Positions 860 through 63,137 of a stretch of DNA of 64,000 bases are shown here, piece by piece (positions within the stretch are counted from its first letter, which is position 1; every line of letters begins with the position of its first letter). Location: the NCBI GenBank assembly GCA_947500385.1, contig CANMSA010000012.1:124001-188000 (forward strand), read 5' to 3'. The DNA comes from an uncultured Flavobacteriaceae bacterium. Lineage in GTDB: Bacteria; Bacteroidota; Bacteroidia; Flavobacteriales; Flavobacteriaceae. The position numbers were made by a program, and so were the translations under genes. The notes beneath the pieces were generated by a model. It saw nothing but the letters and a program-made list of their open reading frames with translations. It was not told the origin of the DNA and did not search any database.

Positions 860-2590
860 ATGCTGTTTTTCAACCGATTCTTTTTAGTTGTTCTTTGTTC
901 GTGTTCTATGTTTTTCGTTCTCAGTTGTGAGGAATCACTTCCCCCGATGACAGGGCAGTTTAGTGAGCAGATCAGGCTCAACCAAATAGGGTATTATCCG
1001 GGTTCGGAAAAGAAGGCGGTTATCGTATCACCGAAAAAAATCGATACATTTCATGTGGTCGATAGTACGACCATGACCGTTGTTTTTACGGGAAATCTAT
1101 CTCCGGTCCAGAATTGGAAATTAGCGGGAGAAGAAGTCCGTATCGCCGACTTTTCACAAGTATTGGATGAGGGAACCTATATGGTACTCGTTGGGGAACT
1201 TGGCTACTCCTATCCCTTTGAAATCAAAAAAAATGTGCTCAGAGAAGTATTCTTGGGTTCTGTAAAGGGTTTGTATTATCAAAGAACAGGAATGCCGCTA
1301 GAAAAGGAACATGCCGGCAAGTGGCATCGGCAAATGGCGCATCCGGATGATAGTATTCCTTTTCACCCCTCGAGCGGTAAAACCGAGGGATACATCGCAT
1401 CACCCGGCGGTTGGTATGATGCCGGGGATTACAATAAGTACATCGTAAACGCCACCTTTCCCCTGGGGCAATTCTATCTGTTACAAGAACAGTATCCAGA
1501 TGCTATCTTGGATAACCAGTTGAATATTCCCGAGAGTGGAAATGGGAAAAGTGATTACCTGGATGAGTTAAAATATGAAATGGATTGGGCGCTGACAATG
1601 CAAGATGCAGATGGGGGCTTGTTCCATAAGCTGACTACCAAGAACTTTGAAGGGATGGTCATGCCCAATAAAGCTATTAGTCAACGGTATATTGTAGGGA
1701 AAGGTACTACCGCCACTTTGGATTTTGCGGCCTGTGCCGCGCAGGCATATAGGGTTTTTAAGAGCGTAGACCCTGTCTATGCAAGTTCCTGTCTGTTGGC
1801 AGCAAAGAAGGCATACGATTGGGCTTTGGAGAACCCTGCCGTGGGCTTCGTCAACCCGGAGGATGTCCATACCGGTCAATACGGCGATACAAACTTTGAT
1901 GACGAGTGGTTTTGGGCGAATGCAGAACTTTTTGTTTCAACAAAAGATACCACTTATCTAAATTCTCTGAATACGAAAACAATGAATTTTGAATTTAAGG
2001 CAGGGGAAAGTTGGACCGGCTATATGCGTTTTTTAGGAATGTTTTCTTTTTTGAATCATAAGGAAAGTATTCCCGCAGCGCTCTATGCTTCCATTGCAAA
2101 AGGTATTCAAAAATCTGCGGACGATTTGGTAGTGAAATCCACAGAATTAGATTACTTTCAACCGATCGACGATTTTCATTGGGGATCTAACAGTGATGTT
2201 TTAAATGCGGCCATGATCATGGCGCAAGCATATCGTTTAAACCCAAAACCAGAGTATTTAAAGGGGGTGCAACAGGCTATGGACTATGTCTTAGGCGCCA
2301 ATGCTATGGGGGTCAGTTATCTTACGGGCTTTGGTGACAAGACCCCTATGAATATTCACCATAGACAAAGTGCCGCGGATACTATAGAACAACCGGTTCC
2401 CGGTTTGCTTTCTGGAGGGCCAAACAGCAGATTACAGGACGTTTCAGGAGGTGCCGTGTACCCCGAAAACCCTTCGCCCATGCAAAGTTGGGTGGATCAA
2501 GAACCAAGTTATGCGAGTAATGAAATCTGCTTAAATTGGAACGCTCCAATGACCTATGTTCTTGGTTTTTTGGAACAAGAATCAAACTAA
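860..2590 (+). CDS. GH9 endoglucanase lipoprotein with N-terminal Ig-like domain
   Basis: Glycoside hydrolase family 9, an inverting beta-glucanase (typically endo-beta-1,4-glucanase, sometimes exo or on mixed-linkage glucan or xyloglucan). The N-terminus is a lipoprotein signal with the lipobox at FVLSC, so it should sit on the membrane. A CelD_N-type Ig-like domain follows (about residues 35-125, starting IRLNQIGYYP). The catalytic (alpha/alpha)6 domain has the GWYDAGDYNKY motif with Asp187 and Asp190, the conserved NIHHR segment, and the general acid Glu555 in SNEICLNWN. All key residues are present and the 576 aa length is complete. It is between the esterase and the sulfatase on the same strand, 39 bp before the latter. 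The exact glucan substrate cannot be read from the sequence. Confidence 0.92.
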   Translation: MLFFNRFFLVVLCSCSMFFVLSCEESLPPMTGQFSEQIRLNQIGYYPGSEKKAVIVSPKKIDTFHVVDSTTMTVVFTGNLSPVQNWKLAGEEVRIADFSQVLDEGTYMVLVGELGYSYPFEIKKNVLREVFLGSVKGLYYQRTGMPLEKEHAGKWHRQMAHPDDSIPFHPSSGKTEGYIASPGGWYDAGDYNKYIVNATFPLGQFYLLQEQYPDAILDNQLNIPESGNGKSDYLDELKYEMDWALTMQDADGGLFHKLTTKNFEGMVMPNKAISQRYIVGKGTTATLDFAACAAQAYRVFKSVDPVYASSCLLAAKKAYDWALENPAVGFVNPEDVHTGQYGDTNFDDEWFWANAELFVSTKDTTYLNSLNTKTMNFEFKAGESWTGYMRFLGMFSFLNHKESIPAALYASIAKGIQKSADDLVVKSTELDYFQPIDDFHWGSNSDVLNAAMIMAQAYRLNPKPEYLKGVQQAMDYVLGANAMGVSYLTGFGDKTPMNIHHRQSAADTIEQPVPGLLSGGPNSRLQDVSGGAVYPENPSPMQSWVDQEPSYASNEICLNWNAPMTYVLGFLEQESN

Positions 2591-2629
2591 ACCGTCTAAT
2601 CCGTGCAAGGACCGCAAATAAGAACCACC

Positions 2630-4114
2630 ATGAGAAACGTAAAAACTTGGGGATTGCTAATCGTGTTATTAATGGGAGTTAGCTCCTTTGGAAAAAATTT
2701 GGATCCAAAACCAAAAAAGAAAAAGCCTAGAAATGTTATTTTTATTTTGACCGATGATCACCGTTTTGATTATATGGGCTTTACGGGAAAGGTACCTTGG
2801 TTAAAAACCCCGAATATGGATAAGCTCGCTGAAGAGGGGGCCTATTTGCCCAATGCCTATGTTACAACCTCATTGTGTTCCCCGAGTCGGGCGTCTATTT
2901 TGACAGGCCAATTTTCGCATTCCCATACGATTATTGACAATCAGGCACCCAATCCGGGAAATTTAAAATATTTCCCCGAGTATTTGGAAAAAGCGGGATA
3001 TCAAACCGGTTTTTTTGGAAAATGGCACATGGGAGATCACGGAGATGAGAAGCAACCCGGCTTTACCCATTGGGAGAGTTTTCCAGGGCAGGGTGTCTAT
3101 TATAACCCTACCTTGAATATCAACGGAAAGAGGATTGCTTACAAAGATTCGACCTATATAACCGACTTGTTAACCGAGCATGCGGTAGGTTGGTTAGAAA
3201 ACCGTGATAAAAAGAAGCCGTTCTTTATGTACCTGTCGCATAAGGCCGTACATGCTGCCTTTAAACCCGCTCGTCGTCATAAAGGCACCTATAAAGGAAA
3301 AAAAATTGATCTCCCCAGCACCTATGACCAAACAAAAAATGGGAAATATAAAGACCTAAAGTGGCCACAATGGGTGGCGGATCAGCGAATCAGCTGGCAC
3401 GGGGTCGATTATATGTACCACGATAATCGTGATATTCATGAGATGGTGGTAAATTATTGTGAAACATTGCTCGGCGTAGATGAAAGTATCGGTACGGTAA
3501 TGGACTACCTTAAGAAAGAAGGGTTGGATGAGTCCACTTTGGTGATTTATATGGGGGATAATGGTTTTAGCTGGGGCGAACATGGCCTGATCGATAAGCG
3601 TCATTTTTATGAGGAATCGGTTAAGGTACCTTTACTGGTTCGGTGCCCAGAGCTCTTCGAAGGTGGCATTGCGCCTGAACAAATGGTACAGAATATAGAT
3701 ATAGGGCCCACAGTATTGGCCGAAGCGGGTATAAAACAACCTGAGACAATGCCCGGGGTTTCGTTTGTGCCCATTTTAACAGGGGATACCAACGCAGTGG
3801 TCCGCAAAGAAGTTTTTTACGAATATTATTGGGAATACGATTTTCCGATGACGCCCACAGTGTACGGCATGCGAACAGATAAGTACAAACTAATGCGATA
3901 TCAGGGGATTTGGGATAGAAATGAGTTGTATGACATTCAAAATGATCCGAACGAAATGTACAATCTCATCGCTGATCCGGATAAGCAGGAAATAATCAAG
4001 TCAATGACCTCCTCGATATACGACTGGTTGGAAAAGACCGATGGAATGAACATTCCGCTAAAGCGAACCGTCAAGTATCGGTATGGAGATTATAAACATA
4101 TGAATGAGTACTGA
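2630..4114 (+). CDS. S1-family formylglycine sulfatase, secreted
   Basis: Type I (S1) sulfatase that should cleave sulfate esters from a polysaccharide. I chose ATG at 2630 because it opens directly into a signal peptide; the GTG at 2603 would add nine unneeded residues. Metal-binding Asp pair is visible in LTDDHRFD, the formylglycine site is CSPSR with Cys83 as the residue to be modified, and GKWHMGDH gives the catalytic Lys/His pair. Further metal ligands are in YMGDNGFSWGEHG. At 494 aa it is full length. Maturation needs an anaerobic or aerobic formylglycine-generating enzyme not seen here. The stop codon is one base away from the stop codon of the converging FG-GAP gene. Subfamily and the sulfated sugar are not assignable by eye. 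Confidence 0.93.
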   Translation: MRNVKTWGLLIVLLMGVSSFGKNLDPKPKKKKPRNVIFILTDDHRFDYMGFTGKVPWLKTPNMDKLAEEGAYLPNAYVTTSLCSPSRASILTGQFSHSHTIIDNQAPNPGNLKYFPEYLEKAGYQTGFFGKWHMGDHGDEKQPGFTHWESFPGQGVYYNPTLNINGKRIAYKDSTYITDLLTEHAVGWLENRDKKKPFFMYLSHKAVHAAFKPARRHKGTYKGKKIDLPSTYDQTKNGKYKDLKWPQWVADQRISWHGVDYMYHDNRDIHEMVVNYCETLLGVDESIGTVMDYLKKEGLDESTLVIYMGDNGFSWGEHGLIDKRHFYEESVKVPLLVRCPELFEGGIAPEQMVQNIDIGPTVLAEAGIKQPETMPGVSFVPILTGDTNAVVRKEVFYEYYWEYDFPMTPTVYGMRTDKYKLMRYQGIWDRNELYDIQNDPNEMYNLIADPDKQEIIKSMTSSIYDWLEKTDGMNIPLKRTVKYRYGDYKHMNEY

Positions 4115-52934: not shown

Positions 52935-52977
52935 GTTCTCCGTTTTTTTGTTCCTCCGCTTTTTTTTGTTCCTCCGC
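52935..52977. repeat. Short imperfect tandem repeat, about 2.5 copies of an 18-bp unit
   Basis: Unit GTTCCTCCGC plus seven or eight T. Copies start at 52935 (shortened, one base missing and GC changed), 52950 and 52968 (cut after the GC-rich part). It lies in the gap 52713-53006, which carries no gene I can support, and ends about 30 bases before the methyltransferase ATG at 53007. Poly-T runs of 7 and 8 bases are included, so slipped-strand length change is possible. Confidence 0.6.
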
Positions 52978-53006
52978 AATTATTTGATGTTCTAATTCTT
53001 TGCGAA

Positions 53007-53645
53007 ATGAAAAATAGCTATGTACAGTATGGTTGTGGGTTATCTGCACCCGAGCAGTGGATCAATTTTGATGTTTCCCCCACCTTAAGGATACAAAAAA
53101 TACCATTGTTTGGTAAGTGGATTGTAAAAAGAACCGGAACCGTTTTTCCAAACAATGTTAAGTATGGTGATATTATAAAGGGGCTGCCTATTAAGGAAAA
53201 TAGTTGCTCTGGCGTTTATTCCTCTCATACTTTGGAGCACCTTTCCCTAAATGGCTTCAGGGAAGCGTTAAGAAATACCTACAAAATTTTACGTCCAGGA
53301 GGAATTTTCCGCTGTATTGTTCCAGATTTAGAACCTGCCGCCAGAAAGTATATCAAAGATTTAGACAACGGGAATACTACTGCAAGCATTGGTTTTGTTG
53401 GCGGAGATACCCTTCTAGGTACGGTGGCGCGTTCAAAAAGTTTGAGAGGAATTTTTAGGCATTATCTGGGAAATTCGAAACACCTATGGATGTGGGATCA
53501 CGAATCAATGGCCTATGAACTCAAACAAGCCGGTTTTGAAAACGTTCGCCGATGTTCATTCAACGACTCTTCGGATGAAATGTTTACCTATGTAGAGGAA
53601 AAGAAAAGATTTGTAAGTGCAGTGGCAATTGAGTGTATTAAGTAG
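53007..53645 (+). CDS. Class I SAM-dependent methyltransferase on the opposite strand
   Basis: 212-aa methyltransferase of the type-11 group. The N-terminal YGCGLSAPEQWINFDVSP contains the glycine-rich SAM loop, VYSSHTLEHLSLNGFREALRNTYKILRPGGIFRCIVPDLE is the core, and LKQAGFENVRRCSFNDS ends the fold. SAM-dependent methyl transfer to a sugar of the locus is likely but unproven. It is the only + strand gene between 42 and 64 kb: it diverges from the Wzy-like gene across 294 bp and converges with the acyltransferase gene with four bases between stops. It therefore needs its own promoter, and it may be a later insertion. Confidence 0.85.
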   Translation: MKNSYVQYGCGLSAPEQWINFDVSPTLRIQKIPLFGKWIVKRTGTVFPNNVKYGDIIKGLPIKENSCSGVYSSHTLEHLSLNGFREALRNTYKILRPGGIFRCIVPDLEPAARKYIKDLDNGNTTASIGFVGGDTLLGTVARSKSLRGIFRHYLGNSKHLWMWDHESMAYELKQAGFENVRRCSFNDSSDEMFTYVEEKKRFVSAVAIECIK

Positions 53646-56708: not shown

Positions 56709-57830
56709 TTATTCAAGAAGGGGCATTAACGCTTCAAAGGTTTGTGGGACATGTATGTTGATCGCCTTAAAAAAATCATAGGCTTTCGTGTTTTTTACAC
56801 CAACAATATCAGCGATACAGATAACCTCAAATCCTATTTTTTTGGCAACTATTAAAGAAGTTGATAAATTTCCGATCACTGTTACGTTTTTCCCTTCCAG
56901 ATCGGAAATCAACTTCTCGCTGGGAATTAGTTTATTTATCTCTGTGCAAAGGCTTGACACGCTTAACTGCTGGTACGTTCCTACCTCTCTTGGATGATAT
57001 TTGAAAAGTACTTTTGCCCCCAACGTGCTTGACCAGGCGAGTACCTTTTCAAGGAAATTACTAAAATTCAACTCTTTGGGTACTCTATCGATCAAATCTA
57101 AAAAAATTACTATGACCCGATCACCTTCAATAGCGCCGCTATCTGAAGATCCGTACAAATTTTCAATTCCGCTCAACAGGGTCTTTTTTTGAATCTCAAT
57201 GAGTTTGGTGTGAGCTAATTCTTTTCGAGCATTCCCTGGGAACAACACATGCGATGAAACAAAATTCTTGTTCATACCATAGCAATACTTCGGTTCGTAG
57301 TACTTGTTACTGCCATATACGAGGTTGCGGAACATGCTCAGCGATTTTTGAAGTACACTTCTTTTTTGTAGTCGTTCTTGCTGTTGCTTTGTAAATGTTT
57401 CAATATCAAGTTCGTTCAACGCTGGATTGATAGAAAAATAGGCATCCACCCCGTCCTCGATATAGGTCATTTTTGTCGGACCATTTTTATGTATATCCCT
57501 TGCGATCAAGGTATCGATCATATCTTCTTGTGAAATGAATACCTGATCATAAACATTTTTGGATATTGGTTTGAATTTTTTAAAATGGCGATATTTTTTG
57601 TAGAGTTGCCGCTCTATTTTTACCATAGCATCGCGTAACTGATATGTTGACTGTAGTATGAGTACTTGATCAAAGGTTGCATCAATTGACTTTTTAAGAG
57701 CCGTATTCAACTCAAATTCCGCGTTCAAAATTAAATCGTTCCTTTGATTTGAAAATTGATTTTTAATAAGACCAGTCGCCAAGATGAGGTTATACTGCGT
57801 ATGTAATACAAAGAGGTTATTCTTTTCCAC
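56709..57830 (-). CDS. Putative sialyltransferase-like (polyST/GT52-type) glycosyltransferase
   Basis: About 373 aa. The N-terminus NNLFVLHTQYNLILATGL resembles the beta-1 strand and acceptor loop of GT52 and polysialyltransferase-like proteins. The three short motifs shared by bacterial GT-B sialyltransferases can be found in order: EDG (125-127 in YIEDGVDAYF), HP (279-280 in FKYHPREV) and a Ser/Thr pair (STS, 323-325 in GNLSTSLI), which in those enzymes serve as base, CMP-binding and phosphate-binding sites. With the NeuB- and NeuA-like genes nearby this is a good candidate for the nonulosonate transferase (inference). Start set at GTG 57830, 14 bases inside the wzx stop; a TTG at 57872 would overlap by 56 bases. 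No ATG is available. Confidence 0.6.
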   Translation of the reverse strand: MEKNNLFVLHTQYNLILATGLIKNQFSNQRNDLILNAEFELNTALKKSIDATFDQVLILQSTYQLRDAMVKIERQLYKKYRHFKKFKPISKNVYDQVFISQEDMIDTLIARDIHKNGPTKMTYIEDGVDAYFSINPALNELDIETFTKQQQERLQKRSVLQKSLSMFRNLVYGSNKYYEPKYCYGMNKNFVSSHVLFPGNARKELAHTKLIEIQKKTLLSGIENLYGSSDSGAIEGDRVIVIFLDLIDRVPKELNFSNFLEKVLAWSSTLGAKVLFKYHPREVGTYQQLSVSSLCTEINKLIPSEKLISDLEGKNVTVIGNLSTSLIVAKKIGFEVICIADIVGVKNTKAYDFFKAINIHVPQTFEALMPLLE

Positions 57831-59247
57831 GATTGCGTATTTTCGCAAAAACGGTGGAATTCGCGTAGTCAAACATCTTTTTAATAAACTTATAGTTCAT
57901 ATAGAGGGCAATAAGTGTAAAAACGGCGGCCGATATTATATTAACTAAACTATTCCCGAGATAATATATTGTGAGGGCCACCATGACCAAGAAAGCTAAA
58001 AATATGATATTCTGTATATTAAGTACAACACCCATCTCCTTTTTTAGGGTTTTGTGACGCACTATCCAAATCGCCAAATTGGCAAGGGTCATCCCTAACA
58101 CCGGGGCGTAAAGTCCTATATAATGAATTCCGATAAGGGTAATGACCACGTTTACAATGACCCCATAGATAGTCGTCCACATTGATTGTATGGTCTTTTT
58201 AGAGGCTAAATATCCAGCGCCATAAAAACCGGTCATCGCACCAAATGCGGCGCTCAACATTAGCACGGGAGCATATTCCAAAGACTCATAGTACTTGGGG
58301 TCTATCATTTCTGGCATCAAAAACTTAATTACCGGTATGAGCACAATGGCAGCGGAAAAAAGTACCTTGATAAAAAGATTGGTAATCTCGGAATAGAATT
58401 GGGTCTTGTCCTTGGATTCGTTTTCCATGATAACAGATTCTTGCCAGGCCGTTAAAAAAACACTCGAAACCATTGCTATGATACCAGCGAATTTATTGGC
58501 CACAGCATAGATGCCATTGGCGTTGATTCCTATTACAAAACTAATGATATAGGTGTTTAAGGAAGAAACTGTCCACCACAGCAATGAATTTGGAATCAAA
58601 GGAGCAGAAAAGGTTATCATTTCTTTTGCCACCTTTTTGTTCAAAAGACGAAAATTAAAGTAGTTTCTAAGACGCACCTTGTATTCGGCAAAGAGCATCC
58701 CTAAAACGGTGGACGCAATGGCAGAAATAAAGAGACTTTCCAATCCGAGGCCAAATCCTACCAGCAAAATAATTTGAAATATGATGTAACTGAATGCCCT
58801 TATGAAGTTGCTTTTGACAAAAACAAGGTTATGCCCCAAACTTCGGATTACTTTCTGATATAGAATAAACACCACCGAGGAAACGAAATAACCAATAACG
58901 AGTGGCAGCAAGATGACATCGTTAAAGAAAAAGTCGAACAGCACGGTGCCTACCACTGCCACGATAATCCCGGTCCCAATGACCGATACGCCGTTGGTGA
59001 AATAGGTGGCCTTTTCACGCTCGTCGCTATCAAAGAAGAACCGAAAAACCGCATCTGTTACCTGTAGGGTAACAATTGGCGTAAGCAAAATTGCGGTCGT
59101 TACCACCAAATCAAAATACCCGTAGTCGTCGGGGTCAAGAATATTGGTGATAATGGGTAATAACAAAAACTGCAAAAAGGTCGTGGCCGTATTTCCTATA
59201 AAGTAGATTATAGTGCCATCAAATAGTTTTTGTTTGGAAGTTTTCAA
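57817..59247 (-). CDS. Wzx-type lipid-linked oligosaccharide flippase
   Basis: Polysaccharide biosynthesis protein of the MOP superfamily, 476 aa with about twelve to fourteen helices, moving undecaprenyl-diphosphate repeat units across the inner membrane. The first helix pair FDGTIIYFIGNTATTFLQFLLLPIITNILDPDDYGYFDLV is a classical Wzx start; ISFVIGINANGIYAVANKFAGIIAMVSSVFLTAWQESVI is the conserved middle. The only usable start is TTG at 59247. It lies 45 bp after the nonulosonate-synthase fusion. Together with the Wzy-like protein this defines a Wzx/Wzy-dependent pathway. Confidence 0.92.
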   Translation of the reverse strand: MKTSKQKLFDGTIIYFIGNTATTFLQFLLLPIITNILDPDDYGYFDLVVTTAILLTPIVTLQVTDAVFRFFFDSDEREKATYFTNGVSVIGTGIIVAVVGTVLFDFFFNDVILLPLVIGYFVSSVVFILYQKVIRSLGHNLVFVKSNFIRAFSYIIFQIILLVGFGLGLESLFISAIASTVLGMLFAEYKVRLRNYFNFRLLNKKVAKEMITFSAPLIPNSLLWWTVSSLNTYIISFVIGINANGIYAVANKFAGIIAMVSSVFLTAWQESVIMENESKDKTQFYSEITNLFIKVLFSAAIVLIPVIKFLMPEMIDPKYYESLEYAPVLMLSAAFGAMTGFYGAGYLASKKTIQSMWTTIYGVIVNVVITLIGIHYIGLYAPVLGMTLANLAIWIVRHKTLKKEMGVVLNIQNIIFLAFLVMVALTIYYLGNSLVNIISAAVFTLIALYMNYKFIKKMFDYANSTVFAKIRNRGKE

Positions 59248-59292: not shown

Positions 59293-60855
59293 TTAGTTGT
59301 TGAATTTGTTCACCTTGTATTTGTGATGTTCTTTGTCGTGAATTTCTTTGGTCTTACTACCTTTTATAGTAGTAGCCAATTTAACATCGTTTACATACTT
59401 GTTAAATTCGTTTTTGCTGATATCGAGTGCGACTCCATCAAAATGTACCCAATCAAGATTTCCTAATTTTACATGCTTCTCTAGCATAAGGGCTCCCGCA
59501 CCTATGGCTATTTGACTGGCCAAAGCACCTACGTCGTGACTCGAGTATCCCGGCACCAAATTGGTATAGGTTTTACGAAGTTCACTGTAGTGATGAATTA
59601 CGCCAATGTTACAGGAATCTGGTGGGGCAGGGTAGGAGGAAGTACATTGTAATAAGAACAGTCGGTAATCTCCCGAAAATAGGTCTAACACAAATTGTTC
59701 ATATTCTTGATCGGTAAATCCGGTAGAAACCACCACGTCTCCTTTGAATGTTTCGGCTACATGTTTCAGGTAATTTCTATGATTCGAAATTGTACTTGGA
59801 AGTTTGATAAGCGGAAGATCGAACTTCAGCATATATTCGTACGAATTCTTATCAAGCACGGATGCAAACCAGAAAATTTCGTTTCTTTTACACTCCTCTA
59901 TTAGAACATCGAATAGGTGCTCGGTCAACTCTACGTTTTCCCGATAGTCTTTTAAGGTATCACCAAAGGGAGATTTATAAGGTGATTTAAGCTCTTCGGG
60001 TGTATAAAAAGTAGCTACATCTCTTTTTTGAACTTTGATGGCATCGGCTCCCTGTTCTTTGCTCATGCGAATCATTTTTCGCAATCTTCTTTCATCACCG
60101 ATGTGATTGTTTGTGAGTTCTGCTACAAAAATGGGCAAGTCTTTTTCCAACTTTAACATCAGCTCTTGATAGAGTTGGTTATTGTCTTTAAGATTCTTAT
60201 TCGGTGCCAAACTCCCCCTGTTGAACTGCCCAAGTGATATATCGCTATATTCCTTTTCGCCGACGTGTGTAATACTAACGGTATCGAGATGATCTTCAAC
60301 GTAGGTTTTCAACCTCACAAAAATATCTTCTTGGGTTTTAAACATCACGTTCGTAAATTCCGAAGTATACCCAGAAAAATCTTCAACGCCTCCCTTTCCC
60401 TTAATAGAACCAAAATCAAAGCCGATAAACACCACTTCCATTTTTTTTCCAGCAGCATCGGCAATCAGCATTCCTAGTTTCAAAGCACTGATAAACAGAA
60501 AGTCGGAGATATACAATCCTTGATTTTCGAGGTCGCCAAAACTGTCGAAATGGCCTAAATTGTGTGGGATAAATGGTATTTTATCGTTGGCTACATCAGA
60601 CGACATTTCCCTATCGGTTAAGTAAAACCCAGCTTTAAAACCATTTTTTTCAACGCTATGGTGTGCCCAGAAACTATGAAGTATGCCGATATGGCCCGCA
60701 TAGAACCTCTCTGAGTCATTTAGGTTTATAACTATGCCCTCTTTTAGTAGATCCTTATCTAATTTGTTTAAGCTTGGGCCTTTACCGACTACATAGATTT
60801 TATTGTCCTTGCTGTTTTCAACAAGCTCTTTGATTTTTGAAAGCGTTTTTTCCAT
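59293..60855 (-). CDS. Fusion: GxGPSL-type N-terminal domain plus NeuB-like nonulosonic-acid synthase without SAF domain
   Basis: 520 aa in two parts. Residues about 1-215 form a Rossmann-like domain with VVGKGPSLNKLD (22-33), LNDSERFYAG, and VVFIGFDFG (141-149), the pattern of the DUF115/Maf (MptE-like) group and, more distantly, GT42 sialyltransferases. Residues about 238-495 are a NeuB TIM barrel: FVAELTNNHIGD (Glu246), GADAIKVQK (Lys274, Lys277), KLPS (351-354), VVSTGF, LLQCTSSYPAPP, GYSSHDVG (His440) and LEKH (458-461). The site that is His in Neu5Ac synthases (LLHCT) is Gln403, as in some other nonulosonate synthases. The usual C-terminal SAF/antifreeze-like domain is missing; the protein ends in a short lysine-rich tail. 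It is 24 bp after the phosphatase gene. Barrel call is firm; the N-terminal role is inferred. Confidence 0.85.
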   Translation of the reverse strand: MEKTLSKIKELVENSKDNKIYVVGKGPSLNKLDKDLLKEGIVINLNDSERFYAGHIGILHSFWAHHSVEKNGFKAGFYLTDREMSSDVANDKIPFIPHNLGHFDSFGDLENQGLYISDFLFISALKLGMLIADAAGKKMEVVFIGFDFGSIKGKGGVEDFSGYTSEFTNVMFKTQEDIFVRLKTYVEDHLDTVSITHVGEKEYSDISLGQFNRGSLAPNKNLKDNNQLYQELMLKLEKDLPIFVAELTNNHIGDERRLRKMIRMSKEQGADAIKVQKRDVATFYTPEELKSPYKSPFGDTLKDYRENVELTEHLFDVLIEECKRNEIFWFASVLDKNSYEYMLKFDLPLIKLPSTISNHRNYLKHVAETFKGDVVVSTGFTDQEYEQFVLDLFSGDYRLFLLQCTSSYPAPPDSCNIGVIHHYSELRKTYTNLVPGYSSHDVGALASQIAIGAGALMLEKHVKLGNLDWVHFDGVALDISKNEFNKYVNDVKLATTIKGSKTKEIHDKEHHKYKVNKFNN

Positions 60856-60879: not shown

Positions 60880-61557
60880 CTAGTTAGATACTTTAAATAT
60901 ATATTTTTCGCTAGGGTCTAGAAGTTCTCCGGTATACGGTTTTCCATTTACCGAAACCGATAAGTTATGTTCTAAGGCTAAGTTTAAGCCGGGGATAATA
61001 TCCCATACATAGGCTCCTTTGGGGTTTTCAAATGAAAAATAAGAGCCTTTGACAACGTTGTACATATTGTAAACGCAACAGCCAATAATGCGATATTCAA
61101 AACCAGGTTCAAGTTTTAAAATATCCTCCTTTGTCAAACTTGAAGAAATTCCACAGATTCGCGATTGGAACCGCTCTGTAGGCTCTCCTGTTTTTAAATG
61201 GCCATACAGCTCTGGCATCAACAACATTGATTGCTGATGTACCCCATTTTCGTAATAGCACATTGCTACGCCCCATTCTTTTAATCCGGAAACAAAATTT
61301 TCGGTGCCGTCAATAGGGTCTAAAATGAAAACCTTGTCTTTTTTGAAGTTTTTCACATTCTCTAATGGGCTCTCTTCTGAAACTAGGGCAACATCAGGGT
61401 AGTTGTTGGCCAGAAAGTCCTTGATAAGCTGTTCGCATAGTAGATCTCCTTTAGAGACATAACTATTATCTTCTTTTAGAATTTTTTCGTTTCGAAGCGC
61501 CAATATTTCAGGAAGTTTCTCCTCTATTTTTTCTTTGATTTGTCCGCAAAGGTCCAT
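60880..61557 (-). CDS. Inositol-monophosphatase/CysQ-family phosphatase
   Basis: Mg2+-dependent phosphatase fold, 225 aa. YVSKGDLLCEQLI provides the N-terminal loop, LVSEES carries the metal-binding Glu61, and ILDPIDGTENFVSG (78-91) holds Asp80 and Asp83 of the classical DPIDGT motif. YVWDIIPGLNLALEHN near the C-terminus corresponds to WDxxAG with Pro in place of Ala. Family members act on inositol phosphate, 3'-phosphoadenosine or sugar phosphates. Its position, 22 bp after a cytidylyltransferase gene and 24 bp before the NeuB-like gene, suggests a sugar-phosphate substrate of the nonulosonate pathway, but this is inference. Confidence 0.88.
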   Translation of the reverse strand: MDLCGQIKEKIEEKLPEILALRNEKILKEDNSYVSKGDLLCEQLIKDFLANNYPDVALVSEESPLENVKNFKKDKVFILDPIDGTENFVSGLKEWGVAMCYYENGVHQQSMLLMPELYGHLKTGEPTERFQSRICGISSSLTKEDILKLEPGFEYRIIGCCVYNMYNVVKGSYFSFENPKGAYVWDIIPGLNLALEHNLSVSVNGKPYTGELLDPSEKYIFKVSN

Positions 61558-61578: not shown

Positions 61579-62331
61579 TTAAAGGAGGCCATTCGATTGG
61601 TAGGCAGCTTCAATTCGGTTTTCGGTTATCCAATCTTCCGTTTTCTTTAAATCTTCTAAATCGTGCACGTCAAAGCACCCTTCGGTTTCAAAAGGCACAA
61701 TAGTACTACCCATAACAGGCCATGGTTCTTGCCCGTTTACCGCTTTTACCCCCTTTTCTACATCCAATACCCAAAAAGAATGGTCAAAAAACAAACAAGT
61801 CGGTAATTCCTGTCTATTGGCACTGATTTTGTCCGTAGGTTTCCCAACATAGGGTTCCATAGTGCCATCTGAATTTAATTTCCTTGCTCTAAGCGGATGG
61901 TATTCATCTTTTCTATGAGATGGAATAACAGCGCTGATGTCCTTGTTTGAATTTTTAATTGCGATACAGCTGTCTATCAAATCTGAGCTAATGGTACCCA
62001 CATTGGCATGAATAACAATCAAGGTCTCGATTTCGCCTTCTTTGGCAATGACCTCATAGGCATGTTTAACCGCATCGGCACTTTGCGAATCGGGTAGTGC
62101 CAAATAGTCCGGTCTTTTAATTTTTACAAAATCTACCGCTGCTCCCGCTTCAAGGATCTTATCACAGTCACTACTAATGTAATAACGCCCTATATGTTCG
62201 GAGTTTTTGGCTGCCAAGGCACCCCATTGAAGCAGGGGTCTGCCGTGTACCTTGAGGATGTTTTTATTTTCAAGGGTATTGTTGCCTCTTCCAATGATCA
62301 AGGCCGCTATTTTATTGGATTTACTTGACAT
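61579..62331 (-). CDS. CMP-sugar cytidylyltransferase, divergent N-terminal loop
   Basis: 250-aa nucleotidyltransferase of the acylneuraminate cytidylyltransferase family. The nucleotide loop reads IIGRGNNTLENKNILKVHGRPLL, altered from the usual IPARGGSKxIxxKNI: the KNI and GRPLL parts are kept. YYISSDCDKIL, the ALPDSQSADAV stretch and VIHANVGTISSDLI are typical; the SANRQELPTCLFFDHSFWVLD segment is like that of legionaminate-type enzymes in Bacteroidota. It should activate a nonulosonic acid with CTP. It starts 101 bp after the other cytidylyltransferase gene, and the phosphatase gene follows after 21 bp. Confidence 0.85.
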   Translation of the reverse strand: MSSKSNKIAALIIGRGNNTLENKNILKVHGRPLLQWGALAAKNSEHIGRYYISSDCDKILEAGAAVDFVKIKRPDYLALPDSQSADAVKHAYEVIAKEGEIETLIVIHANVGTISSDLIDSCIAIKNSNKDISAVIPSHRKDEYHPLRARKLNSDGTMEPYVGKPTDKISANRQELPTCLFFDHSFWVLDVEKGVKAVNGQEPWPVMGSTIVPFETEGCFDVHDLEDLKKTEDWITENRIEAAYQSNGLL

Positions 62332-62432: not shown

Positions 62433-63137
62433 TCAAGTAAAATAAGGGTCTTCATCAATAACCTTTTCATCCAGGTCTAACCAGGCTCTTGCGATTTCAA
62501 TATCCAAGCGATCATCAATATCACAACTTGCTCTTTTTTCCATTTCAAACTTGTAGGGGTTTGTTCCATGAAAATAGGACCATTCGATCATTTTTTCCCG
62601 CGGCGCCAACAGAATGCCGTCTGTAATGAAGTAATACTTGGGCAATTCTTGGGAAGGCACATGTTTAAGCCCCAATTCATAGTTAATAGGACCTTTATCA
62701 TCCCACATGTACCTTTGAAATGGTTGCACGGAAATTAAAGAATCATACTCACTTTTGTTTACTACAATTTCAAAGTAATCCTTGATCGCTTTCGAATACA
62801 GTTTAGGAAATACCAGCGGGGCAGTGCATGGCGCCCATAGAATGTGATCACCCTCCACACTTTCCGCAATATGCCGCACCACTTCTCCGAAAGATTTTGT
62901 TTTTTCATCACAATACTCCGGTGCTCTTTTGTGTGTGGCCATACCCGAATCTTTTGCAAATTTCAACATTTTGTCGCTGTCCGAGGAAACAACAATGGTA
63001 TCGATATCTCGAACTCTTTTTAGTTGGTTTATTTTGAACAGCAACAAGTTCGTACCGGCAAAAGGGGATATGTTTTTATTCTTTAATCTTCTACTTCCGG
63101 CCCTTACAGGGATAATTGCGGTAACTTTACTTTTCAT
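62433..63137 (-). CDS. CMP-nonulosonate cytidylyltransferase (NeuA-like)
   Basis: 234-aa acylneuraminate cytidylyltransferase with the standard loop IIPVRAGSRRLKNKNISPFAGTNLL, DTIVVSSDSDKMLKFAKDSG, HKRAPEYCDEKTKSFGEVVRHI, ILWAPCTAPLVFPKLY and the C-terminal ASCDIDDRLDIEIARAWL. Residues for CTP and metal binding seem intact. No GDSL or HAD domain is fused behind it. It is 42 bp downstream of the fcl gene and is the second complete enzyme of its family in the locus; which of the two serves the NeuB-like product cannot be read from sequence. Confidence 0.9.
   Translation of the reverse strand: MKSKVTAIIPVRAGSRRLKNKNISPFAGTNLLLFKINQLKRVRDIDTIVVSSDSDKMLKFAKDSGMATHKRAPEYCDEKTKSFGEVVRHIAESVEGDHILWAPCTAPLVFPKLYSKAIKDYFEIVVNKSEYDSLISVQPFQRYMWDDKGPINYELGLKHVPSQELPKYYFITDGILLAPREKMIEWSYFHGTNPYKFEMEKRASCDIDDRLDIEIARAWLDLDEKVIDEDPYFT

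Follow-up and report, generated by a model that had tools for sequence, protein, structure and literature searches.

A SAF-less NeuB-type synthase fused to a Rossmann-like domain, a candidate bifunctional enzyme of ulosonic acid metabolism in Bacteroidota and Enterobacteriaceae

Why is a NeuB-type synthase joined to a second domain in a single chain, and which sugar would the resulting protein handle? The question arises from an open reading frame of the window, the whole stretch of 64,000 nucleotides analysed here (uncultured Flavobacteriaceae bacterium, contig CANMSA010000012.1, positions 124,001 to 188,000). The ORF 59293-60855, located on the minus strand, starts with ATG, counts 520 codons and codes for a single intact protein of 520 residues. 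Its N-terminal domain (residues 1-215; 60211..60855, minus strand) is predicted to be Rossmann-like, carries the motifs GKGPSL (residues 24-29), NDSE and GFDF, the last within VFIGFDF (residues 142-148), and is considered below as a candidate ulosonate transferase. The NeuB-type, PEP-condensing TIM barrel covers residues 238-505 (59341..60144, minus strand) and was recognised by Pfam PF03102 at residues 261-502 (E 8.4e-40, 137.2 bits for a cut-off of 22.1). The C-terminal end is marked by an EHHKY motif (residues 509-513; 59317..59331, minus strand), beyond which the SAF domain begins in SAF-bearing relatives. Besides PF03102, the single Pfam match at E <= 0.1 in the fusion protein was MptE-like PF01973 at residues 6-38, whose 17.5 bits are about half of the gathering cut-off of 34.6. 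In the full-length model compared by VIA-align, the barrel is close to PseI 8h2c (Z 26.2) and to the SAF-less protein 6ncs (Z 25.0, rmsd 2.9). The preliminary description, a NeuB-like barrel and a GxGPSL Rossmann-like domain without SAF in one ORF, is borne out by Pfam, by the model and by the 12 loci in which the fusion was found.

A frameshift or an assembly join of two genes could produce such an ORF, but this explanation has a negligible probability and is refuted by conservation, the identical two-domain architecture and a common C-terminal end being present in 12 loci of separate records. A sequencing error could also have hidden a SAF domain encoded downstream in another frame. No SAF-like continuation was visible by eye in the three minus-strand frames 3' of the fusion ORF, and the flippase ORF starts 45 bases past its end. 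All 13 aligned relatives terminate at or just past EHHKY, which is invariant in 13 of 13 proteins, the phage protein described below included, and SAF (PF08666) had no match in the 6.03-Mb source genome (99.86% complete), with matches in 8 of 14 control genomes. A frameshifted SAF is therefore excluded, since the downstream frames, the shared EHHKY end and the genome scan are all devoid of it. Likewise, SAF was found in none of the 13 proteins of the fusion alignment and in no fusion.

The lack of SAF had been regarded as unusual in itself, and this is not borne out. The SAF scan was carried out on 30 proteins, namely the best 27 non-fusion loci of the family search, two fusions and the second NeuB of the source genome, without L002 and L005, the copies that belong to the window itself. 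SAF was detected at E <= 0.01 in three of them, so that 25 of 28 non-fusions are devoid of it; judged by length, the carriers are L010, L029 and L033, which extend 64-67 residues beyond the cropped barrel versus 16-21 for the other non-fusions. The second NeuB of the source genome (L001) is also SAF-less, as is 6ncs, the solved 290-aa member from Leptospira borgpetersenii. The missing SAF is thus ordinary and the unusual part is the fusion. In N. meningitidis NeuB, residues of the antifreeze-like (SAF) domain reach the site of the partner subunit, according to the accessible part of the source (PMC7591256), and the whole SAF-less class must therefore manage without that contact. On this ground, the earlier statement that the enzyme needs another way to close its site is sensible, but it holds for the whole class and not for the fusion in particular. 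In the fusions, part of the site closure ensured elsewhere by SAF may be provided by the invariant EHHKY tail.

In a barrel tree (42 rows) rooted at its midpoint only, the fusions and the phage protein form their own clade (support 100/100), and the SAF-less NeuB proteins of about 290 residues appear as a separate one. The latter (6ncs, L001) resemble the fusion by their barrel without SAF and by an adjoining cytidylyltransferase gene in 5 of 5 loci inspected, fusion clusters having a cytidylyltransferase-like gene too. They differ from it by the absence of the N-terminal domain and of the EHHKY tail, and their phosphatase is of the HAD kind and not IMPase-like, being carried as a domain on the cytidylyltransferase in the three long forms scanned (L004, L056 and L059). 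Both kinds of SAF-less synthase can therefore have a phosphatase companion, which fits a phosphorylated product. On contig C9 of the source genome (L004:6999-10151), a GT52 transferase gene and a cytidylyltransferase+HAD fusion are followed by the second SAF-less NeuB. Another NeuB fusion was noticed at L010:709-2508, where a 600-aa frame has a cytidylyltransferase-like part preceding a NeuB with a C-terminal part of SAF length.

The same fusion was searched for in other Bacteroidota and found. The 12 loci, window included, belong to Bacteroidota (nine), E. coli (two) and Enterobacter (one). They comprise genome contigs of Arenibacter sp. F26102 (L035), of two Flavobacteriaceae MAGs (L036, L037) and of Flavobacterium sp. 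LC2016-01 (L038), further genomes from the phylum and the class of the window (L054, L055; L052, L053), and plasmid records of E. coli KE47 (L060, a record of 4.9 Mb yet filed as plasmid), Enterobacter roggenkampii (L061) and E. coli S1-ZIM-01-A (L062); L006 and L007, being contigs of L035 and L036, were counted once. The L035 contig is also among the genomes of the window's family, on which basis the window is taken to be Bacteroidota. The fusion is rare. In the family search, 133 of 249 genomes match the fusion protein at E <= 0.001 and, among the matches listed, three are near full-length, own genome included, all others starting at residue 218 or later. The class search detected it in 3 of 395 genomes at E <= 1e-40, again with the own genome, and DNA similarity to the KE47 gene was found in 15 of 5426 E. 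coli genomes (12 chromosomal, 3 plasmid).

The three enterobacterial loci are interpreted as kps capsule clusters, in which ABC-transporter and rml genes are present, and insertion sequences lie near the fusion clusters of L061 and L062. They are in this respect like the E. coli group 3 capsule clusters, and the L061 plasmid appears in Table 1 of the corresponding paper; in its accessible text, the possible precursors for seven new clusters include CMP-sialic acid and "myco-inositol", and no fusion is mentioned (PMC10433991). The identification of L060 with the TBA_3 cluster of that paper was dropped, TBA_3 having udg and none being recognised in L060 (PMC10433991). No published account of a synthase joined to such an N-terminal domain was found in a literature search that covered few subscription journals; its parts are known in print, as a K15 Kdo transferase recognised by a Maf/CstII fold and as Kdn synthesis via Kdn-9-P, and the fusion was not found in the accessible portions of these two papers (PMC7387560, PMC6200933).

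The genes around the fusion may inform on the sugar. Directly upstream, the gene at 60880..61557 (minus strand) codes for an inositol-monophosphatase-like phosphatase of 225 residues (PF00459, E 1.3e-16, 61.3 bits for a cut-off of 27). An IMPase-like gene occupies this place at each of the 12 fusion loci and also precedes the phage NeuB; eleven fusion loci and the phage were aligned, that of L053 was found by motif, and the Pfam test was made on the window, L039 and L060. All 12 aligned proteins contain DPIDGT and WD, the metal-binding motifs of the inositol monophosphatase superfamily. Two cytidylyltransferase-like genes lie further upstream on the minus strand: they code for a divergent 250-aa protein at 61579..62331 (PF02348, E 3.1e-4, 21 bits for a cut-off of 22.6), 67% identical to the product of the sole cytidylyltransferase-like gene seen in the L055 stretch, and for a CMP-sugar synthetase-like protein of 234 residues at 62433..63137 (PF02348, E 4.9e-15). 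A cytidylyltransferase-like gene is present in every fusion cluster, with Pfam tests in five of which one falls just below cut-off. These proteins differ strongly, some pairs being as low as 12% identical, and the sugar may therefore differ between clusters. On the other side, a polysaccharide flippase (57817..59247, minus strand; PF01943, E 1.8e-21) adjoins the fusion gene and places it in a surface-polysaccharide context.

An ordinary synthase of Neu5Ac, pseudaminic or legionaminic acid bearing an irrelevant extra domain would agree with the name "N-acetylneuraminate synthase family protein", given by RefSeq to the relatives in E. coli and Enterobacter, and with PseI and NeuB being the solved relatives, but it is quite improbable. 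The scores of the fusion protein are far below the equivalog cut-offs of NeuB_NnaB (TIGR03569, 120.5 of 399.65 bits) and PseI (TIGR03586, 114.7 of 340.25 bits), SAF is missing, and the L035 locus contains a separate 342-aa synthase with a C-terminal extension of SAF length among genes read as a nonulosonate pathway. Furthermore, among the possible routes to ManNAc (another being ManNAc-6-P epimerase), the two kinds of gene covered by the search, NeuC_NnaA and GlcNAc 2-epimerase, had no match in the source genome. This argument is weaker for the E. coli KE47 record, where NeuC_NnaA was matched twice below cut-off.

A phosphomannose isomerase is present in the source genome (the C-terminal PMI family PF01238 had no match). 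In the accessible text of PMC6200933, Kdn is made from Man-6-P via Kdn-9-P and a phosphatase, and our leading guess is that the barrel would likewise use Man-6-P and yield Kdn-9-P.

The N-terminal domain alone gave no Pfam match above cut-off, no NCBIfam family and nothing above threshold in a PDB sequence search; PF01973 reached 19.5 bits and matched 2 of 5 members at E <= 1. Among 395 genomes of the phylum, it had three strong matches, all fused, and two weak ones (E 3e-4 and 9e-4). The possibility that it is a known common partner of NeuB, envisaged at the outset, does not apply, the domain matching no Pfam family above cut-off and no NCBIfam family and being found solely fused. An AlphaFold model was obtained with five sequences as input (pLDDT 71.4, pTM 0.75). 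Foldseek comparison of this model with the PDB returned nothing at E <= 0.001, the best entry being TPK (E 0.005), followed mainly by dehydrogenases; among viral models, five unnamed or uncharacterised viral proteins were found at E <= 0.001. The candidates of Foldseek were submitted to VIA-align, a tool which states that Z 7-8 is typical of unmatched models. Against this usual range, the best row was Maf 5mu5 (Z 9.8, 176 residues, rmsd 3.9), followed by CstII 1ro8 (Z 9.6; CstII rows 8.6-9.6), a C. jejuni alpha-2,3-sialyltransferase (9.2), M. jannaschii HPPK 8sd5 (9.2), a Pasteurella sialyltransferase (8.8), ST8SiaIII (8.8) and TPK 2hh9 (8.6). The 18 rows at Z >= 6.7 consist of 11 sialyl- or nonulosonate transferases, five proteins labelled pyrophosphokinases (HPPK, TPK), one SteA and one unlabelled Lactobacillus protein; the dehydrogenases come below, starting at Z 5.3. 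The model therefore appears to group with the Maf, CstII, GT29 and MptE/TPK folds, on evidence that is fair but not conclusive because Z 7-8 is common by the tool's own warning, and the predicted fold cannot decide between a transferase and a kinase. The likeness to Maf/DUF115 or GT42 put forward in the preliminary description is thus retained for the model, nearest to Maf 5mu5 and CstII 1ro8, but not for the family assignment, PF01973 being below cut-off and GT42 without Pfam match. The two parts of the protein have distinct neighbours, Maf and CstII (Z 9.8 and 9.6) for the model of the N-terminal domain and PseI 8h2c (Z 26.2) for the barrel of the full-length model.

Alignment of the 12 fusions revealed 21 invariant N-terminal residues: G24, K25, G26, I43, N46, D47, S48, E49, W63, Y78, P97, A124, G145, F146, D147, F148, Q175, H197, G199, S204 and S207. 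In the model, G24-K25-G26, N46 to E49, G145 to F148 and H197 would be located at or just past the ends of predicted strands. Compared with the window protein, the relatives are 29-44% identical in the N-terminal domain and 50-75% in the barrel, indicating that the former diverges faster; between Bacteroidota and Enterobacteriaceae proteins, the N-terminal domains are 28-36% identical. Profile comparison of this domain with three cluster ORFs, each GxGPSL-type or transferase-like, aligned 41 columns around GxGPSL with 58% probability for that of L054, 32 columns at 4% for that of L055 and 142 columns at 1% for that of L053.

A relative from a phage helps to separate the functions. In the IMG/VR contig 3300001847_000530 (L039), the genes coding for an IMPase (1678-2391), a SAF-less NeuB of 286 residues (2381-3241) and a cytidylyltransferase (3147-3905) lie in a row, between a 450-aa ORF without Pfam or NCBIfam match, which precedes them, and a C5 DNA methylase gene. 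A use of this module in DNA or glycan modification is possible (IMGVR_UViG_3300001847_000530, L039:296-5164). In the barrel tree (42 rows, rooted at midpoint), the phage NeuB branches within the fusion clade, where L053 is its sister (support 100/98), and it has no N-terminal domain, for which the overlap of the NeuB and IMPase genes leaves no room; the simplest reading of the sequences is that the domain was probably lost. Elsewhere, 3 of 50,697 phage records match the barrel, with 24-30% identity, and none matches the N-terminal domain at E <= 0.1. Five barrel loci were found in viral contigs, L039 alone being close (51%) and L040-L043 showing 24-30% identity; a second scan returned the L039 contig again. 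Phosphatase, barrel and cytidylyltransferase would thus form a core, to which the N-terminal domain appears as an add-on separable from synthesis. This bears on a reading in which the domain would act as a phosphotransferase (MptE/thiamin-pyrophosphokinase type) and phosphorylate the aldose for the barrel, the neighbour phosphatase later taking the phosphate off, as happens in sialic acid synthesis in animals. HPPK 8sd5 (Z 9.2) and TPK 2hh9 (Z 8.6) are close behind Maf and CstII, and a phosphatase gene always adjoins the fusion gene. However, no kinase family matches the domain, and the phage keeps the phosphatase without it, so that the phosphorylated substrate seems available in its absence. 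This reading is therefore unlikely and, as the core is kept in the phage, a transferase or a control domain is preferred to a substrate kinase.

Between these two, the CMP-binding motif (K/R)XHP was considered. It is conserved in sialyltransferases of GT29, 38, 42, 52 and 80 and in Kdo transferases of GT99 and 107, according to the accessible text of PMC12887879. Of the 12 fusions, 11 have no such motif in their N-terminal part, and the sole match (L054) lies at an unconserved place. Separate ORFs with (K/R)XHP occur in four fusion clusters, those of the window (KYHP), L035 (two), L036 (two) and L038. The one of the window, at 56709..57872 (minus strand), codes for a polysialyltransferase-like protein (PF07388, E 3.2e-8, 33.9 bits for a cut-off of 23.3) and is a rival candidate transferase; with those of L035 and the first of L036, PF07388 is matched in three clusters. 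The separate (K/R)XHP ORFs may code for the real transferases of their clusters. The N-terminal domain could instead have no catalytic activity, or act as a sensor: it would bind CMP-sugar, CMP or a different ligand and control the synthase or serve it as a scaffold, with a separate protein, such as that of 56709-57872, transferring the sugar. The lack of KXHP in the domain and its presence in separate ORFs, the weak tie to known families, the faster divergence and the phage barrel devoid of the domain all agree with such a role, which we regard as somewhat unlikely. Indeed, 21 invariant residues over 28-36% identity exceed what is expected for a scaffold, and no ORF scanned in the E. coli and Enterobacter clusters matches the polysialyltransferase family. 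Other clusters may have further transferases too, since L055 contains an MptE-like ORF, and ORFs that match no Pfam family are present in L053, L054 and L060-L062. The GT52 protein of the second NeuB operon also has the motif. As for the motif itself, it is short and is also present in non-transferase ORFs (an IMPase of the fusion clusters, the L052 barrel), and it does not seem to occur in CstII either. For these reasons its absence is a warning rather than a disproof for a transferase.

We tentatively favour, at somewhat less than even confidence, that the fusion is a bifunctional enzyme of surface-polysaccharide synthesis, in which the core module would turn a phosphorylated aldose into a CMP-ulosonic acid, whose sugar would then be transferred by the fused domain. 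The SAF-less barrel would condense PEP with a phosphorylated aldose devoid of N-acetyl group, the IMPase-like neighbour would strip the phosphate from the product, the cytidylyltransferase would convert it into CMP-ulosonic acid, and the N-terminal domain of Maf/GT42 fold would pass the ulosonic acid to the growing glycan, the fusion tying the first and the last steps of one sugar's route. This bifunctional enzyme is favoured because 11 of the 18 top fold rows are sialyl- or nonulosonate transferases, because many of the invariant residues sit by predicted strand ends although the domain diverges faster than the barrel, because all 12 loci have the phosphatase gene directly upstream and a cytidylyltransferase-like gene in the cluster, and because a parallel operon (GT52, cytidylyltransferase+HAD, SAF-less NeuB) exists in the same genome, which has a phosphomannose isomerase but no match to NeuC_NnaA, GlcNAc 2-epimerase or SAF. 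The published precedents, as far as their accessible text goes, are the K15 Kdo transferase prediction (PMC7387560) and the Kdn-9-P route (PMC6200933). It is weakened by the missing (K/R)XHP with separate (K/R)XHP ORFs in four clusters, by the lack of any family above threshold and of a Foldseek match, by modest Z values that HPPK and TPK nearly equal, and by the CMP step between the two fused activities being a separate protein. A more far-reaching version is doubtful: a synthase and transferase in one chain, with a new glycosyltransferase family of Maf/GT42 fold whose NDSE/Q/H site would replace KXHP, a SAF-free ulosonate-phosphate synthase barrel whose EHHKY would replace SAF, and a module mobile among Bacteroidota, Enterobacteriaceae capsule plasmids and phage.

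Each known system resembles a part of this arrangement. The Maf flagellin nonulosonate transferases (PF01973 central domain, 5mu5), of which the GxGPSL motif is typical, have the predicted fold of the N-terminal domain (Z 9.8); unlike them, the fusion is far below the PF01973 cut-off, lacks the flanking Maf domains, is joined to a synthase and belongs to a polysaccharide and not to a flagellar context. CstII of GT42 is also alike by the modelled fold (rows at Z 8.6-9.6), but the domain has no GT42 Pfam match and no KXHP and, by motif reading against the CstII sequence, the catalytic His does not appear to be at an equivalent place. The Kdn-9-P pathway of Bacteroides thetaiotaomicron and Prymnesium parvum follows the logic proposed for the fusion, i.e. 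PEP and a sugar phosphate, a phosphatase and a CMP-synthetase, with another kind of phosphatase and no fused transferase-like domain mentioned in the accessible text (PMC6200933). In the E. coli K15 capsule, matches to Maf and CstII led to the prediction of ORF4 as the Kdo transferase, and like the N-terminal domain it is a capsule-cluster protein without family match, recognised by this fold; ORF4 is not joined to a synthase, and the likeness is one of description (PMC7387560, accessible part). The K15 Kdo linkage is given as alpha in that paper and as beta in a later one (PMC12887879), in the portions available.

If the favoured reading is true, rare E. coli capsules and Bacteroidota glycans would contain an ulosonic acid with a sugar phosphate as starting material, the gene called "inositol monophosphatase" would code for the phosphatase of that pathway, and the extra domain would be either its transferase, the first of a glycosyltransferase family of its own, or a control domain of a new type. 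The RefSeq label of the E. coli relatives goes no further than "N-acetylneuraminate synthase family protein".

Some minor features were noticed around the fusion genes. Directly 3' of them, BNR-repeat, sialidase-like ORFs are present at L055:6525-7793 and L038:11599-12903, the BNR_2 score of the L038 ORF being 25.3 bits, below the cut-off of 31.4, and the L055 ORF being judged by eye. Similar hexapeptide-repeat (acetyltransferase-like) ORFs were seen by eye at L054:4929-5750 in Bacteroidota and at L060:12435-13319 in E. coli, with a Pfam test on L060 only. In the window, a short tandem repeat of 18 bp occupies 52938-52986, just upstream of a methyltransferase ORF starting at 53007.
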